Assembly: GCA_018829095.1 (NCBI GenBank)
Contig: JAHJUF010000073.1
Span: 1 to 59,724, forward strand
DNA: 59,724 nt
Source: Pseudomonadota bacterium
GTDB lineage: Bacteria; Desulfobacterota; Desulfobacteria; Desulfobacterales; Desulfatibacillaceae
Direction: 5' to 3'
The position numbers were made by a program, and so were the translations under genes. Of this stretch, positions 41,620 through 48,496 are shown piece after piece (positions within the stretch are counted from its first letter, which is position 1; each line of letters starts with the position of its first letter). The notes under the pieces were generated by a model, which did not search any database, was not told the origin of the DNA, and saw nothing but the letters and a program-made list of their open reading frames with translations.

Positions 41620-42420
41620 CTATATGATGTAGTAGATCTGGGGCTGTGTCCCCAGCTCGGGCTTGCGCCGAATGGTGAAATGCTTGCGCAGAGCCTTCGA
41701 AACCTCGGACTCGTGGTCATCAAGGTCGCCGAAGATCAGTTCGTTGTTCTTGCAGGCCTCCACGCAGGCGGGCATCTGCCCCTTGGCCAGCCTTTCGGCG
41801 CAGAAGTTGCATTTTTCCACCACGCCCTTGGTACGGCTGGGAAATTCGGGATTGGGAGGCGAGAAATTGCCCTCGGCGTCCTTAAGACTTGCCTGTTGCC
41901 TCGGGTCGAACCAATTGAAGCTCCGGGAGCCGTAGGGGCAGCCCGCCATGCAGAACCGGCAGCCGATGCAACGGTGATAATCCATCATCACGATGCCGTC
42001 GGGCCGCTGGAAAGTGGCCTGGGTCGGGCAGACCCGGACGCAGGGAGGATTCACGCATTGGTTGCAGAGAACCAGGAAAGGCTCCCTGGCGATCTCGGCC
42101 GGAAGGTGCTCGTTCTCCTGGCCGGGAAAGGTGTGCTTGTAGCCTTCTTCCCAAATCCACTTGATCTCGTGGAGATGGTTCTCATAATGGGGGATATTAT
42201 GGGCCTTGTTGCAGGCCTCGATGGCGGCTTTCCGGGTTTCTCCCGTGAACTTGCCTACATCCACCGCCATGGCCCACCGCTTTGCCGTGAGGGCATTGTC
42301 GAAAGGCGCGGCACCCTTCGGCTTGACCCCCATGGCCAGGGCTTCGACCGAAGGCCGCACCGTCAGCCCGGCAGCCGTGACCCCCAGGATTTTCAGAAAG
42401 CTCCTCCTGGTGCTATCCAT
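41620..42420 (-). CDS. dsrO: DsrO, periplasmic iron-sulfur subunit
   Basis: A 266-aa ferredoxin-like protein of the DMSO reductase FeS subunit type. It begins with a Tat signal (STRRSFLKILG at residues 3-13), so it folds in the cytoplasm and is exported. Cysteine clusters LCNQCVNPPCVRVCPTQAT, HRCIGCRFCMAGCPYG and CNFCAERLAKGQMPACVEAC suit several [4Fe-4S] clusters. ATG 42420 has AAAGGAG 8 nt upstream and overlaps the dsrJ stop. It should connect DsrJ and DsrP electrically. Confidence 0.95.
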   Translation of the reverse strand: MDSTRRSFLKILGVTAAGLTVRPSVEALAMGVKPKGAAPFDNALTAKRWAMAVDVGKFTGETRKAAIEACNKAHNIPHYENHLHEIKWIWEEGYKHTFPGQENEHLPAEIAREPFLVLCNQCVNPPCVRVCPTQATFQRPDGIVMMDYHRCIGCRFCMAGCPYGSRSFNWFDPRQQASLKDAEGNFSPPNPEFPSRTKGVVEKCNFCAERLAKGQMPACVEACKNNELIFGDLDDHESEVSKALRKHFTIRRKPELGTQPQIYYII

Positions 42421-42821
42421 CACTTCATCTCCTTTGGCTGGAGGTGGCATTCCCAGCAGTACGGACTGACACCTGCGTAGTTGTGACAGGAGTCACAAAA
42501 CTTTTCCTTGTTGGAATGACACTCCATGCAGGTGTTGGACAGGCTCATCTCGTAGCGGACGCCTGTAAAAGCGGGATACGCGCGGTTGCTGTTCCGGACC
42601 ACCGAAGTTCTCCACTCGTTCAAGAGCTTCATGTGGTTGGCGCGCATGTACTCCGTATTTTCCACGCAAACAGGCTCGCTCATGGCGGCGATGGCTTCGG
42701 TCTGGATGTTGGGCTCCGGGGGAGGAGTGGCCTTGCCCATGTTGTAATAAAGGGGAAAGGTGAACACCAAAAAGAAGATGACGAGCCCGACGGTGACTTT
42801 GCCCAGATCGTAGATCTTCAT
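42420..42821 (-). CDS. dsrJ: DsrJ, triheme cytochrome c
   Basis: A 133-aa periplasmic protein with one uncleaved or cleaved N-terminal hydrophobic segment (residues 8-27) and exactly three CxxCH haem motifs near the C-terminus (CMECH, CDSCH, CWECH). This matches the known triheme DsrJ of the DsrMKJOP complex, including the conserved CVEN cysteine in the middle that has been discussed as an unusual haem ligand. It overlaps dsrK by 4 bp and dsrO by 1 bp. Confidence 0.95.
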   Translation of the reverse strand: MKIYDLGKVTVGLVIFFLVFTFPLYYNMGKATPPPEPNIQTEAIAAMSEPVCVENTEYMRANHMKLLNEWRTSVVRNSNRAYPAFTGVRYEMSLSNTCMECHSNKEKFCDSCHNYAGVSPYCWECHLQPKEMK

Positions 42822-44440
42822 CCTTCATCCTCCATTCCGGGAAGGTCCTCGCCACGCAAGTCCGTGGTGCGCTTCTTCTCGCCGTCAAGCACGAGAGCGT
42901 TGCCCACCAATTCATGCACGCCGGTCACGCCGACTCCCGGTACCCAGTAGTCCATGAGGGGCGGCAGGGCGGCCCGGTCGATGGCGCAAACGCAGGCCAA
43001 CATGTTCACGCCGTGTTTCTCGTGGACATGCCGGACGGCGTTGGCCCGGGGCAGGCCCCCGCGGAACCTCAGTTCCAGGTTCTCGCCGGCGTTCAGCCCC
43101 GATCCGCTTCCGCAGCAGAAAGTCTGCTCCCGGATGGTGTTGGGCGGCATTTCGTAGAAGTGGTTGCAGGTCTTATTGATGATGTACCTGGGCTCTTCCA
43201 AGAGACCCATGCCCCGAGAGGGGTTGCAGGAGTCATGAAAGGTCAGCCGCAAGTGATCATTACGGCTCTTGTCCAGGTTGAGCTTGTTATGTTTGATCAG
43301 ATCGGCCGTGAACTCCGTGATGTGCACCATCTTGTTGGACTTGGCGTTTTCGAACTTTGTGCCGGTGATGGGGTTCACGGGTTGTTCCAGGAAGTCGGAC
43401 GGGCCGTTCATGGTGCTCATGTACTGGTGGATCACCCGCCACATGTGGCCGCACTCGCCGCCAAGGATCCATTTGACCCCAAGGCGCTTGGCCTCGGCGT
43501 ACATCTTGGAGTTCAGGCGCTTCATCATCTCGTTGGACGTGAAGGATCCGAAGTTGCCGCCCTCGGAGGCATAGGTGCTCCAGGTGATGTCCAGGCCCAT
43601 GCTCTCCAGGTAGTGGAAGAGGATGAGATACCCCATGGCCGTGTACGTACCCGGATCACCGAACACATCCCCGGAGGGCGTGATGAACAGAATTTCCGCG
43701 CCTTTCCGGTTGAAGTTCGGCTTCACCCGCACGCCCGTGACATCCTCGATCTCGTCCACGAAGAAGTCCAACATGTCCTTGAAGGCGTGGGGCTGGATGC
43801 CCAGGTGATTGCCCGTGCGGTAGCAGTTGGCCACCGGCGTGGCGATCCAGTCGATGTTCAGACCCAGGAGGTTCAAGAGCTCGCGGGCGATCATGGTGAT
43901 CTCCGCAGTGTCGATTCCGTAGGGACAGAACACGCTGCACCGGCGGCATTCGGAGCACTGGAAGAAGTAGTACCACCATTCCTTGAGCACCGGCAGGGTG
44001 AGTTTGCGGGCACCCACCATTTTGCCCATGAGTTTGCCCGCCAGGGTATAGTCCTTGCGGTAGACCGAACGAAGGAGTTCGGCCCGGAGAACGGGCATGT
44101 TCTTGGGGTCGCCCGTGCCGATGAAGTAGTGGCACTTGTCCGCACAGGCTCCACACCGGACGCAGGTGTCCATGAAAATTTTCAGGGAACGGAAACGGTC
44201 CAGGCGGTCCCGGAGTCCGTCCACGATGATCTCCACCCAATTTTCAGGGAGGCCCCAGTCTTCCTCTTCCGGGTTCCATTTGTGGGGGTTGGGCATGCCC
44301 ACGTACTCAACGGACTGGGGTTTCGCCGCGTAGCAGTACATCCCCTTCCGGATGACGGTGGGCGTGTCCATCCACCCGGTGGCCGGCGGATTGTGATCAA
44401 TCCGTATCATCTCCTGGGATTTGGGGACTTCATCAGCCAT
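42818..44440 (-). CDS. dsrK: DsrK, HdrD-like catalytic iron-sulfur subunit
   Basis: The 540-aa cytoplasmic subunit thought to reduce the DsrC trisulfide. It has two classical [4Fe-4S] motifs (CVRCGACADKCHYF near residue 93 and CSECRRCSVFCPYG near residue 160) and two CCG-type cysteine regions (GGECGHMW with HDSCNPSRGMG, and FCCGSGSG with ACVCAID) for a heterodisulfide reductase-like cubane site. No membrane helix; it docks on DsrM. GGAG lies upstream of ATG 44440. It starts 2 bp after dsrM and overlaps dsrJ. Confidence 0.95.
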   Translation of the reverse strand: MADEVPKSQEMIRIDHNPPATGWMDTPTVIRKGMYCYAAKPQSVEYVGMPNPHKWNPEEEDWGLPENWVEIIVDGLRDRLDRFRSLKIFMDTCVRCGACADKCHYFIGTGDPKNMPVLRAELLRSVYRKDYTLAGKLMGKMVGARKLTLPVLKEWWYYFFQCSECRRCSVFCPYGIDTAEITMIARELLNLLGLNIDWIATPVANCYRTGNHLGIQPHAFKDMLDFFVDEIEDVTGVRVKPNFNRKGAEILFITPSGDVFGDPGTYTAMGYLILFHYLESMGLDITWSTYASEGGNFGSFTSNEMMKRLNSKMYAEAKRLGVKWILGGECGHMWRVIHQYMSTMNGPSDFLEQPVNPITGTKFENAKSNKMVHITEFTADLIKHNKLNLDKSRNDHLRLTFHDSCNPSRGMGLLEEPRYIINKTCNHFYEMPPNTIREQTFCCGSGSGLNAGENLELRFRGGLPRANAVRHVHEKHGVNMLACVCAIDRAALPPLMDYWVPGVGVTGVHELVGNALVLDGEKKRTTDLRGEDLPGMEDEG

Positions 44441-44442
44441 GG

Positions 44443-45483
44443 TTACTCCTTCTCCGCGCTATCAGCGGCATCGGCGGGCATTTTATCCACGGGGAGCCCG
44501 GCTTCGATCATGCGGTCTCTGAACTCGTCTTCGTATTCCTCGTAGGTATGGAGATGAACCTCGGGGTTCCAAGGGTTCACATGATGAAACTCCCGGCTGT
44601 TGCCGCGCAGGTTCCGGGTGGGGCTCATGAAGATGCCGCCCAGATGCATGAGCTTGCTGAAAGGAAAGTACGCCAGCAGCACGCTCACCAGGAACAGGTG
44701 AATGAAAAAGAAGATGCCAATCCCTTCCGGCACGGACGGATGCAGGCTCGCCAAGCCCAGGGTCAGTTCCCGGATCGCTACGATGTCCACATGGACCACG
44801 TAGCGCATGATCAGGCCCGTTCCCGCGATGGAGAGGATCAGGAACAGGGGAAAGTAATCAGCAGGAAGACTGATGTAGCGCACGTTGGAAACGGCAAGGC
44901 GCCTGAAGAGGAGGTAGCCGGCCGCGCCAAAAAGCACGAACCCGGAAATAATGATCCCCGGAAGGCCGATCTGGAGAAATCCGTCCAGGGCGTCCAGCAG
45001 TTGAATAGGTGCCGGAATGGGCTCCAGAAAGAACCGCAGGTGCCGTATCACCACGGTGAGAAAGGCATAGTGGAAAGCCAGGGCGGCCACCCACAGCCAG
45101 AGTTCCCACCCGTAAGCGATCCTGGGCCCCTGGGAGTCGAGCTGCATCTTGGTATTCCGGAAAAGGGACCTGAAAGTCAGAATCTCCAGGGCCATGCGGC
45201 CCACGACATGCCATTTGCTGGAGGGATTCTCCAGCTTATCCGGCTTGATCCAGGGCAGACTCTTCTGCTGGCCGCAGGTTGTTGCAATGGAGAAGGGAAC
45301 CGGGCTTTTGGCCCAGGAAAGCACCTTCCAGATGAAACCGAGGATGAACACGGCCAATGCAAGAAGGGGAATCACCACGCCGAACAAGGGGTGTAGGGCG
45401 GGTACAGCCCCGCCGATGGTGCCGACGACCAGCACGGCTCCCACGGCAATCAGGGATACGATAACCGATGTCAGAAAATTCAT
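44443..45483 (-). CDS. dsrM: DsrM, membrane cytochrome b subunit
   Basis: The 346-aa NarI/HdrE-like protein has about six membrane helices with histidines suited to haem b ligation (AALAFHYAFLTVVIRHLRF, MRYVVHVDIVAIRE, FIHLFLVSVLLAYFPFSKLMH). It is believed to link the menaquinone pool to DsrK. A soluble C-terminal tail (HVNPWNPEVHLHTYEEYEDE) is typical of DsrM. GAGGTAA precedes ATG 45483. It follows the RsbRD-N gene by 16 bp. Confidence 0.95.
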   Translation of the reverse strand: MNFLTSVIVSLIAVGAVLVVGTIGGAVPALHPLFGVVIPLLALAVFILGFIWKVLSWAKSPVPFSIATTCGQQKSLPWIKPDKLENPSSKWHVVGRMALEILTFRSLFRNTKMQLDSQGPRIAYGWELWLWVAALAFHYAFLTVVIRHLRFFLEPIPAPIQLLDALDGFLQIGLPGIIISGFVLFGAAGYLLFRRLAVSNVRYISLPADYFPLFLILSIAGTGLIMRYVVHVDIVAIRELTLGLASLHPSVPEGIGIFFFIHLFLVSVLLAYFPFSKLMHLGGIFMSPTRNLRGNSREFHHVNPWNPEVHLHTYEEYEDEFRDRMIEAGLPVDKMPADAADSAEKE

Positions 45484-45499
45484 TGACGCTTACCTCGCT

Positions 45500-46060
45500 T
45501 CAGGTTTCGGTTTCCTCGCTTGCCCGGTTTTCGGCCTCTTGGCCGGATCCGGAGGCCTCCGGCAACTCACAGACCAAATTCGCCTTGGCCAGGGCGTTGT
45601 AAACGGCATTCTTGACTTCCGCCAGGCGTATCTCGGCAAGTTTGGCCTTGGACTCCGCGTAGAGATCAAACCCTGTCAGGGCCAGCCGGTCCACCCGGGA
45701 ATCCAGTTCATACAGGTCCTGGTCCTTGAGCTTGGCCAGTTCCTTTCGGAGCTTTTCCCGGACGATGCCTTTCAGCTCGAAAAGAAAAGCCACCGCACGG
45801 GAAGGGGTAAAATCCTGGACCGCCCGGACCCGCATGAAGTCAGCCAAAAAATCAAGTTTTACTTCATGTTTGTCATGAAAAAGCCCGTCGAACGCTTCTT
45901 CCAGTCCCAGGCTAAGCTTGTGCCCCACCGGATTGGCAAAGGGGTCTTTCTGTTTTTTTAGAAACTGGGTGGCATCTATCGGATAGGTGGCAAGAGTGCG
46001 TTCCTTCCATTCCTTCAGAATGGCCGAACGATTCTCCTTGAGGAGTTCCGGGATATCCAT
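45500..46060 (-). CDS. RsbRD N-terminal domain protein, first gene of the dsr operon
   Basis: A 186-aa soluble protein. The first 140 residues (LLKENRSAILKEWKERTLATY, then KDPFANPVGHKLSLGLEEAF and SRAVAFLFELKGIVREKL) follow the RsbRD-N pattern, a globin-related helical sensor fold. The C-terminus is acidic and low in complexity. ATG 46060 is chosen because the upstream frame extension has no coding character. Small proteins of this kind are found in front of dsrM in other sulfate reducers, so a role in sensing or assembly for DsrMKJOP is plausible, but no mechanism is known to me. Confidence 0.82.
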   Translation of the reverse strand: MDIPELLKENRSAILKEWKERTLATYPIDATQFLKKQKDPFANPVGHKLSLGLEEAFDGLFHDKHEVKLDFLADFMRVRAVQDFTPSRAVAFLFELKGIVREKLRKELAKLKDQDLYELDSRVDRLALTGFDLYAESKAKLAEIRLAEVKNAVYNALAKANLVCELPEASGSGQEAENRASEETET

Positions 46061-46175
46061 TTCCACCCGTCCGCCGGAAGCATGGAACCGCACCGAAAAC
46101 GTCTTCCCATCCGGGATGGGCGGGCAGCATCCTGTTTCCAAGCACAACTTGCTGATATAAAAGAAAATAGAATCC

Positions 46176-46388: not shown

Positions 46389-47018
46389 CTACGTGCCTTC
46401 GGCGCATTCCAGGTCCCTGGCCAGAGCCGCCGCGTGGAGGTGCCCCGCGATGTGGACCGGGCTTTTCTGGTAGATGGGATCCCAGGCCGAGGGGTCTGCG
46501 GAACAAAACTGCTGGGAGACAAGACCCATCAGCTCCCCCGCCTCGCCTGCAGGGGTTCCGGCAAGCTTTTCGGCTGCCTCCCAGGTGGCTCCGCAGGGAG
46601 CGCCCCGGAGAACCTGCACCTCGGCCACCTTGCCGTCCTTCAGGAAAACGCGGAACCTCGGTGCCCCGAACCGTTGTCCATACTCGCCCAAGGCAGCCTG
46701 CCCGGGAAGGGCACATCAGGTGGGGGGGCACAGGACACCCGGGACCTCCATCTTCTTTCCCGAGGCTACCATGGGCACCTTGTCTCTCTGGCACAGCCGG
46801 GCCAGGTCCAGGGAAAGGTCCGGATGGCGGAGGAAGTCCAGCACGAGATCGGCACGGATCTCCTGGGGAAAATAGGGGGACGTGTCGTCAAGGACTGGCG
46901 GCAGGGCTTGGTCCAGGCTGTGGACCGTCAAGTCGAAAGAGCCCTGGCCGTATGCTTTGAGCCCCCGGATCTTGGCTCTGGCAGAGCCTCCCTGCTCGAA
47001 AACCCAGATCCTCTGCAT
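46389..47018 (-). CDS. DUF166-family protein, probable selenoprotein (Sec101 at UGA 46716-46718)
   Basis: The frame from ATG 47018 meets TGA at 46718-46716 and continues in the same frame to 46389, giving 209 residues if the UGA is read. Both halves belong to one DUF166 domain: DLVLDFLRHPDLSLDLA (residues 58-74), then CPPT-U-CAL (97-104), then VEVQ-type strands and RGAPCGATWEAAEKL (138-152) and HIAGHLHAAAL near the end. The UGA sits in the conserved cysteine patch and next to Cys102, the usual place for Cys-to-Sec exchange. A hairpin with G in the apical loop lies 17 nt after the UGA. ATG overlaps the pepA stop, so it is coupled to pepA. DUF166 function is unknown; old thymidylate-synthase labels are doubtful. 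A nonsense pseudogene is the alternative. Confidence 0.75.
46687..46706 (-). promoter_or_regulatory. Candidate bacterial SECIS hairpin
   Basis: On the mRNA, starting 9 nt after the UGA, two CC/GG pairs, a C-U mismatch and a 5-bp stem (GGGCA with UGCCU) enclose a GGC triloop. The loop begins 17 nt after the UGA, and its first two bases are G. Known bacterial SECIS rules ask for a loop about 16-37 nt away with a G in the first two positions, so the fit is good. Judged by eye only. Confidence 0.5.
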
Positions 47019-48409
47019 CAGTAGACCCCCAGGAACCGGGCCAGGAGCCGCACTCCGAACCCGGTGGCGAAACGGCCCACCTCTCCCCGGGGGGATTCCC
47101 CGTTGTAGGCGGTTCCAGCGATGTCCAGGTGGGCCCAGGGCAGGCCTTGGACGAACTCCTGGAGAAACGCCGCTCCGGTGACGGAACTGGCGTGTCCCCG
47201 GGGGTATTTGGCGATGTTCCGCAGGTCCGCCCGGTCGCTCTTCATGGCCTCAGTGTACTCGGGGTACAGGGGCAGCCGCCAAAGGCGCTCCCGGGTGGAT
47301 TCCCCGGCCTCGTAAAGCTCCCCGGCCAGGGTGTCGTCATTGGAGAAAAGTCCGGCCGCCGCAGTTCCCAGGGCCACCAGGATGCCCCCTGTCAGGGTGG
47401 CGACATCCACCACGCGGGTGGGAGAGAACCGCCGGATGCCCCAAGCCAGGGCGTCAGCCAAAACCAGACGGCCCTCGGCGTCCGTGTTGCCTATCTCCAC
47501 GCTCTTGCCCAAGCCGGACCGGTACACATCCCCGGGAAAGTAAGACCGGGCGTCCATGGCGTTGTGGGCCGCGACCACCACACCGGCCACGTTCACGGTC
47601 GGCCGGAGGATGGACAGGGCCCGCATGATGCCCAGGACCGTGGCCGCTCCGGCCATGTCCGTGCGCATGTCCTCGATGCTGCCCGAGGATTTCAGGTTCT
47701 GGCCCCCGGAATCAAAAGTGATGCCCTTGCCCACGAGGAGGATGCGTTCCTTGCGCCTGGGCGCGCCCAGGTATTGGGCCATGGCCAGGCGGGGGGGGTG
47801 GACCGAACCCTTGCCCACGGCGAAGAGGAGCCCCAGGCCCTCGTCGCGGATGCGGTCCTCGTCCAGCACCTCCACGGCCAGGGAGGGATCCTTTTGCCCC
47901 AGGGCCTCGGCCTCGGCGGCGAGCCTCTGGGGCGTCACCTCCTCAGCGTTTTCATTCACCAGATCCCGGGCGTACCAGACGCATTCGCAGAGGGTGGCCG
48001 CCTTTTCCAGTTTTTTCCGGGAGGATTCGGCGCCCACGACCTGGACTGTCTCCATTTGGGGCCCGGGCTCGCCCTTGTATCGTTCAAAGGAGTAGGCCCC
48101 CAGCCAGGCCCCTTCCACGCCAGCCACGTCCCCTCCCCCGCCGGCCTTTCCGGACAGATCCAGGCAGATCCCGGTGCGCTTGAGTTCCAGGGCCTTGCGA
48201 ACTCCCGCCGCCGCTGCGCCAAGGATGGCCCGGGGTCCTGAATCGCTGCCCTGGCCCAGGCCGCAAAGGATGAGGGTCTCCCCGTCCTGGTAACGGACGG
48301 TGACTTCGGACCGGTCTCCCTGGAAATCCCGGATGTCTCCGGCTTCCTCCCGGGTCAGGAACCGGATTCGCGTTTCCATGCCGGGTTTTTTTGCCAGAAT
48401 CAGCCGCAT
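47018..48409 (-). CDS. pepA: M17 leucyl aminopeptidase
   Basis: A 463-aa cytosolic leucine aminopeptidase. The catalytic C-terminal domain has VGKGITFDSGGQNLKSSGS, MRTDMAGAATVLG and the family signature NTDAEGRLVLADAL, which supply the two-metal site; a bicarbonate-site arginine is in EGRL. The N-terminal 150 residues are a weakly conserved macro-like domain, as usual. ATG 48409 (MRLILAKK) is chosen over an upstream in-frame ATG at 48448. Its TGA overlaps the ATG of the DUF166 gene. Confidence 0.93.
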   Translation of the reverse strand: MRLILAKKPGMETRIRFLTREEAGDIRDFQGDRSEVTVRYQDGETLILCGLGQGSDSGPRAILGAAAAGVRKALELKRTGICLDLSGKAGGGGDVAGVEGAWLGAYSFERYKGEPGPQMETVQVVGAESSRKKLEKAATLCECVWYARDLVNENAEEVTPQRLAAEAEALGQKDPSLAVEVLDEDRIRDEGLGLLFAVGKGSVHPPRLAMAQYLGAPRRKERILLVGKGITFDSGGQNLKSSGSIEDMRTDMAGAATVLGIMRALSILRPTVNVAGVVVAAHNAMDARSYFPGDVYRSGLGKSVEIGNTDAEGRLVLADALAWGIRRFSPTRVVDVATLTGGILVALGTAAAGLFSNDDTLAGELYEAGESTRERLWRLPLYPEYTEAMKSDRADLRNIAKYPRGHASSVTGAAFLQEFVQGLPWAHLDIAGTAYNGESPRGEVGRFATGFGVRLLARFLGVY

Positions 48410-48496
48410 ATTTCTTTCCCCCTCCCCAGGAAGCCCTGTTCCGTCCAAAGGCCGATCGGCAAATCGGTCTTCCCCAAAGGCGGGCTTCCGAAATCC

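Follow-up and report, generated by a model that had tools for sequence, protein, structure and literature searches.

The dfsP locus and its gene neighbourhood

The stretch of DNA analysed here (the window, 59,724 nt), from a sulfate-reducing bacterium, carries on its minus strand, at positions 46389..47018, a gene whose 209-residue product is obtained when a single in-frame UGA is read as selenocysteine (Sec). The reading frame starts with an ATG at 47018 and ends with a TAG stop codon; when it is translated with TGA as Sec, this TGA, at 46716..46718 on the minus strand, is the sole interruption. The Pfam domain DUF166 (PF02593) covers residues 17–203 with an E-value of 4.9e-39. The first-pass annotation of this DNA had described one DUF166 frame of 209 residues with a UGA at residue 101, in the context CPPT-U-C, and these coordinates were confirmed. 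The UGA opens an invariant (U/C)C motif.

The protein was also matched by NF041372, a curated NCBIfam equivalog model named "DUF166 family (seleno)protein DfsP", at 293.6 bits, where the model's cut-off is 200 bits. The match aligns residues 2–203 with positions 1–202 of the 203-position model. Membership of DfsP is marked by a full-length score above the equivalog cut-off and by Sec or Cys as the first residue of the CC motif, and both were found. The window protein corresponds to the model over its whole length and shares the position of its Sec/Cys site; it belongs to this family, with no difference that matters. We therefore refer to the gene as dfsP. A composition scan of the window for other genes with an in-frame UGA gave no convincing candidate.

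Upstream of dfsP lies a leucyl aminopeptidase gene (Peptidase_M17, 47018..48448, minus strand), the TGA stop codon of which overlaps the dfsP ATG. Downstream are an RsbRD_N-domain gene (45500..46147, minus strand) and dsrM, dsrK, dsrJ and dsrO (41620..45483, minus strand). It had been proposed that dfsP is coupled to the aminopeptidase gene, pepA, and adjoins the dsr operon. The stop/start overlap with pepA is real in the window, but in another species of the genus (G008) dfsP is not preceded by a pepA reading frame that extends into it. The RsbRD_N gene, next to dfsP, and the dsr genes are retained in G008, but proximity to dsr was seen in this genus only. In other lineages dfsP is adjoined by folE2, an iron-type alcohol dehydrogenase gene or a UDP-glucose pyrophosphorylase gene, with no single partner. 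Because the neighbours vary in this way, and conservation of pepA and dsr ends at the level of the species or genus, nothing about the function of dfsP can be read from either, and a functional link to them was rejected.

In several lineages (loci L055, L057 and L067), a Cys-type DUF166 gene adjoins or overlaps a gene that clusters with folE2, encoding type I GTP cyclohydrolase (Pfam match for L057). It is possible that this adjacency hints at a role in pterin or folate metabolism.

UGA and cysteine at codon 101

Members of the family model were identified in seven of the nine genomes of the bacterium's family and in 84 of the 395 genomes of its phylum, 58 of them scoring over the cut-off. Alignment of the homologues revealed TGA in 24 analysed loci, every one at the same column, and Cys at that column in the remaining loci. 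In the phylum, a single UGA stands at exactly codon 101 in at least 24 genomes, that of G008 included, and no stop codon other than UGA was found within the DUF166 domain of the UGA-bearing genomes. Across the 51 aligned sequences column 101 is always followed by an invariant Cys, giving the motif U-C or C-C, and archaeal relatives have CC at this position. Homology to 50 relatives (37–67% identity) crosses the UGA and extends to the C-terminus, and C142, H195 and other residues beyond it are invariant, which places the readthrough frame beyond chance. A maximum-likelihood tree calls for at least seven switches of the Sec/Cys label, of which at least two are forced by strongly supported branches; one example is family f76, in which Sec and Cys clades are sisters. 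One genome (G139) holds two DfsP genes, a Cys-type and a Sec-type (C1:1460845-1461453 and C1:2217402-2218007; L081 and L080).

The genes selA, selB, selC and selD are all encoded in the genome from which the window is taken; its draft assembly spans 3.63 Mb over 457 contigs and is 87% complete. The selA match scored 598 bits, and selB scored over its cut-off, although split or cut by contig ends. The tRNA-Sec scored 77 bits, with the anticodon tca assigned by ARAGORN. The selD gene (377 bits; contig C191:4141-5064, L024) contains one in-frame TGA of its own, which probably makes SelD another selenoprotein of the bacterium. A UGA column occupied by Cys in homologues and the presence of selA, selB, selC and selD are the features that characterize a bacterial selenoprotein, and with the SECIS-type hairpin described below they support the earlier proposal that the UGA of dfsP is read as Sec. 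On this comparative evidence, Sec decoding of the codon is almost certain.

We considered whether the UGA might instead be a true stop codon, the downstream half being a dead remnant of a pseudogene or an artefact of sequencing or assembly. The fragmented and incomplete state of the draft genome is compatible with such an error, as is the fact that the hairpin of the window is not significant by itself. However, the same UGA is present in 24 analysed genomes, G008 among them, in a domain otherwise free of stop codons; the invariant residues persist past the UGA; and UGA is the only type of stop found, always at one Cys column. A miscalled sense codon at 46716-46718 is unlikely, since TGA recurs at this codon in a separate species and in no fewer than 22 other genomes. 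We regard this explanation as refuted in practice, with only a very small probability left to it.

Less probable still is the production of two proteins, an N-terminal product of 100 residues and a C-terminal product of 100 residues initiated from a TTG at 46691. Both ORFs exist, and for some of the Cys relatives that fall outside the subfamily the match came in two pieces, but every full-length Cys homologue has the two halves in one open frame, and the join of the halves is where the conserved CC site lies.

The suggestion that DUF166 might be a new selenoprotein family, made in the first-pass annotation on the mistaken view that DUF166 is absent from the listed families, can find encouragement in a Pfam name that is still DUF166 and does not mention Sec, but is contradicted by the existence of NF041372 and by two reviews, and retains practically no probability. 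DUF166 is included among the known bacterial selenoprotein families in a 2022 review, with pfam02593 (PMC9312934), and in a 2026 review, with NF041372 (PMC13188914). As cited in these reviews, the DUF166 selenoprotein is credited to Zhang & Gladyshev (Nucleic Acids Res 2007, 35:4952), from a symbiont of Olavius algarvensis. That delta symbiont is likewise a deltaproteobacterium with a DUF166 selenoprotein, according to the citing reviews (PMC9312934, PMC13188914). Among the papers listed for the name DfsP, all uses were unrelated. The DfsP selenoprotein family is already known, having been described in 2007, and since it also has its own curated model, dfsP is soundly annotated but is no discovery.

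A putative bSECIS hairpin downstream of the UGA

A hairpin with a loop starting with GG had been noted 17 nt past the UGA, and is present at 46687..46706 on the minus strand, with the arrangement CCC GGGCA [GGC] UGCCU (bulged U) GGG. Numbered from the U of the UGA, the upper stem pairs G16-G-G-C-A with U-G-C-C-U28 around the loop GGC; one bulged U and a CCC/GGG stem follow. The apical loop begins about 16–17 nt past the UGA. Published constraints on the bacterial SECIS element (bSECIS) comprise a loop of 3–9 nt with G at the first two loop positions, a stem of at least 4 bp, a location 16–37 nt after the UGA and an energy of −7.5 or lower (PMC13188914). The dfsP hairpin satisfies these constraints, as do 15 of the 30 Cys genes, and this looser published model consequently discriminates poorly.

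The minimum free energy of the 55-nt hairpin region of dfsP was no better than that of shuffled sequences (z +1.23), and the 26-nt hairpin was on a par with synonymous recodings of the peptide that it encodes (z −0.05). Taken alone, the hairpin of the window is no stronger than base or codon composition predicts and proves nothing, and it was rejected as sole evidence for Sec.

The evidence from the whole gene set is good. A hairpin at the exact place, defined as a loop 16–19 nt after the codon with G at the first two loop positions, was found in 21 of the 24 Sec genes versus six of the 30 Cys genes (Fisher p 1.3e-6, with rows that are not independent); these Cys genes include some from family f76, in which close sisters carry Sec. 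Mean hairpin energy was −11.5 for Sec genes versus −6.7 for Cys genes, and the mean z relative to synonymous recodings was −1.6 and −0.4, respectively. Compensatory pairs were seen in G008, where pairs 18-26 and 20-24 (from the U of the UGA) change from G-C and A-U in the window to C-G and G-C; the encoded peptide is GQAA in the window and RRDG in G008, whereas the GG of the loop is retained. Covariation over the whole set was only modest when pairs were counted for one common register, because the register of the hairpin shifts by one base between subfamilies, and a uniform covariation model was set aside. Two Cys-type dfsP genes of family f76 (L030 and L031, from G218 and G340), in the sister clade of Sec genes, still have a hairpin where the SECIS would lie, which may be a remnant left by a Sec-to-Cys change.

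We conclude with high confidence that the gene is dfsP of the known DUF166 family and encodes a soluble protein of 209 residues, in which SelB and tRNA-Sec would decode the UGA at 46716-46718 as Sec, aided by the hairpin just downstream. What looks like a pair of short ORFs is accordingly annotated as one functional selenoprotein, correcting the annotation.

Candidate active site and structure of DfsP

Residues 101, 102, 142 and 195 are invariant in the 51 sequences, and residues 172 and 189 are each retained in 50 of them. On the minus strand, the codons lie at 46713..46715 for Cys102, the partner of Sec101; 46593..46595 for Cys142, within the motif RGAPCGATW; 46503..46505 for Cys172; and 46434..46436 for His195. 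Residue 97, Cys in the window protein, is T in 34 of the 51 sequences and C in eight, and C97 was ruled out on these counts as the redox partner of Sec101. The Cys-Sec pair proposed in the first-pass annotation holds in the form U101-C102, because residue 97 is mostly T and residue 102 is invariant, and falls in the form C97-U101.

Our best guess from this conservation pattern is that U101, C102, C142, C172, H189 and H195 form a selenol/thiol redox or metal site. Sec101-Cys102 would lie at the junction of a putative Rossmann-like N-terminal domain and a putative IscU-like C-terminal domain, joined in the reactive site by Cys142, Cys172, His189 and His195; a selenol/thiol redox pair or a metal site appears most likely.

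The AlphaFold2 model of DfsP has a mean pLDDT of 97.3. Its N-terminal half is similar to a large number of Rossmann-like domains, none of which stands out as a clear relative. The C-terminal half, modelled separately (pLDDT 94.5), returned IscU chains at the top of a Foldseek search with weak E-values (0.18 and above). In VIA comparisons, this half aligned with IscU chains over 88 residues, with Z reaching 6.5 and an rmsd of about 3.4, and with CO dehydrogenase FAD subunits at Z 7.7, values below the Z of 8 under which a match may reflect merely a common arrangement. In an hhalign comparison, C142 fell in register with the central Cys of the FGCG motif of IscU (E 0.0035, probability 9%), whereas the best of 30 shuffled controls reached a probability of 0.8%. 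The DUF166 C-terminal half (46389-46712, minus strand) is thus weakly IscU/NifU-like by both structure and profile comparison.

Several observations set DfsP apart from IscU. A Pfam search at E-values up to 1 matched DfsP to DUF166 alone, with no match to IscU/NifU_N (PF01592). Of the cluster-ligand positions of IscU, only the FGCG Cys is in register with a conserved Cys, C142; the first one (PLCGD) is not covered by the hhalign match, and the alignment of DfsP sequences offers no Cys to correspond to it. Unlike IscU, DfsP has an additional N-terminal domain, predicted to be Rossmann-like. No solved structure related to DfsP by sequence was found. The TSCPD domain was also tried as a relative and rejected, hhalign giving no support, a weak negative given that IscU versus TSCPD was also unsupported in the run.

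The modelled likeness of the C-terminal half to IscU is a new lead that points weakly to kinship, and does not amount to membership. The register of C142 with the cluster-binding Cys of IscU suggests that U101, C102, C142, C172, H189 and H195 may constitute a metal/thiol site. In a further and rather unlikely reading, DfsP would be an IscU-like scaffold fused to a Rossmann-like domain, and Sec101-Cys102, Cys142, Cys172 and a His would serve as ligands of a metal or Fe-S cluster, or as carriers of sulfur or selenium. On that reading, the Sec would be a metal ligand or a persulfide/selenide carrier rather than a plain redox residue. A concrete question follows from the possible IscU-like domain and the invariant U/C-C...C...C...H set: does DfsP bind iron, zinc or an Fe-S cluster?
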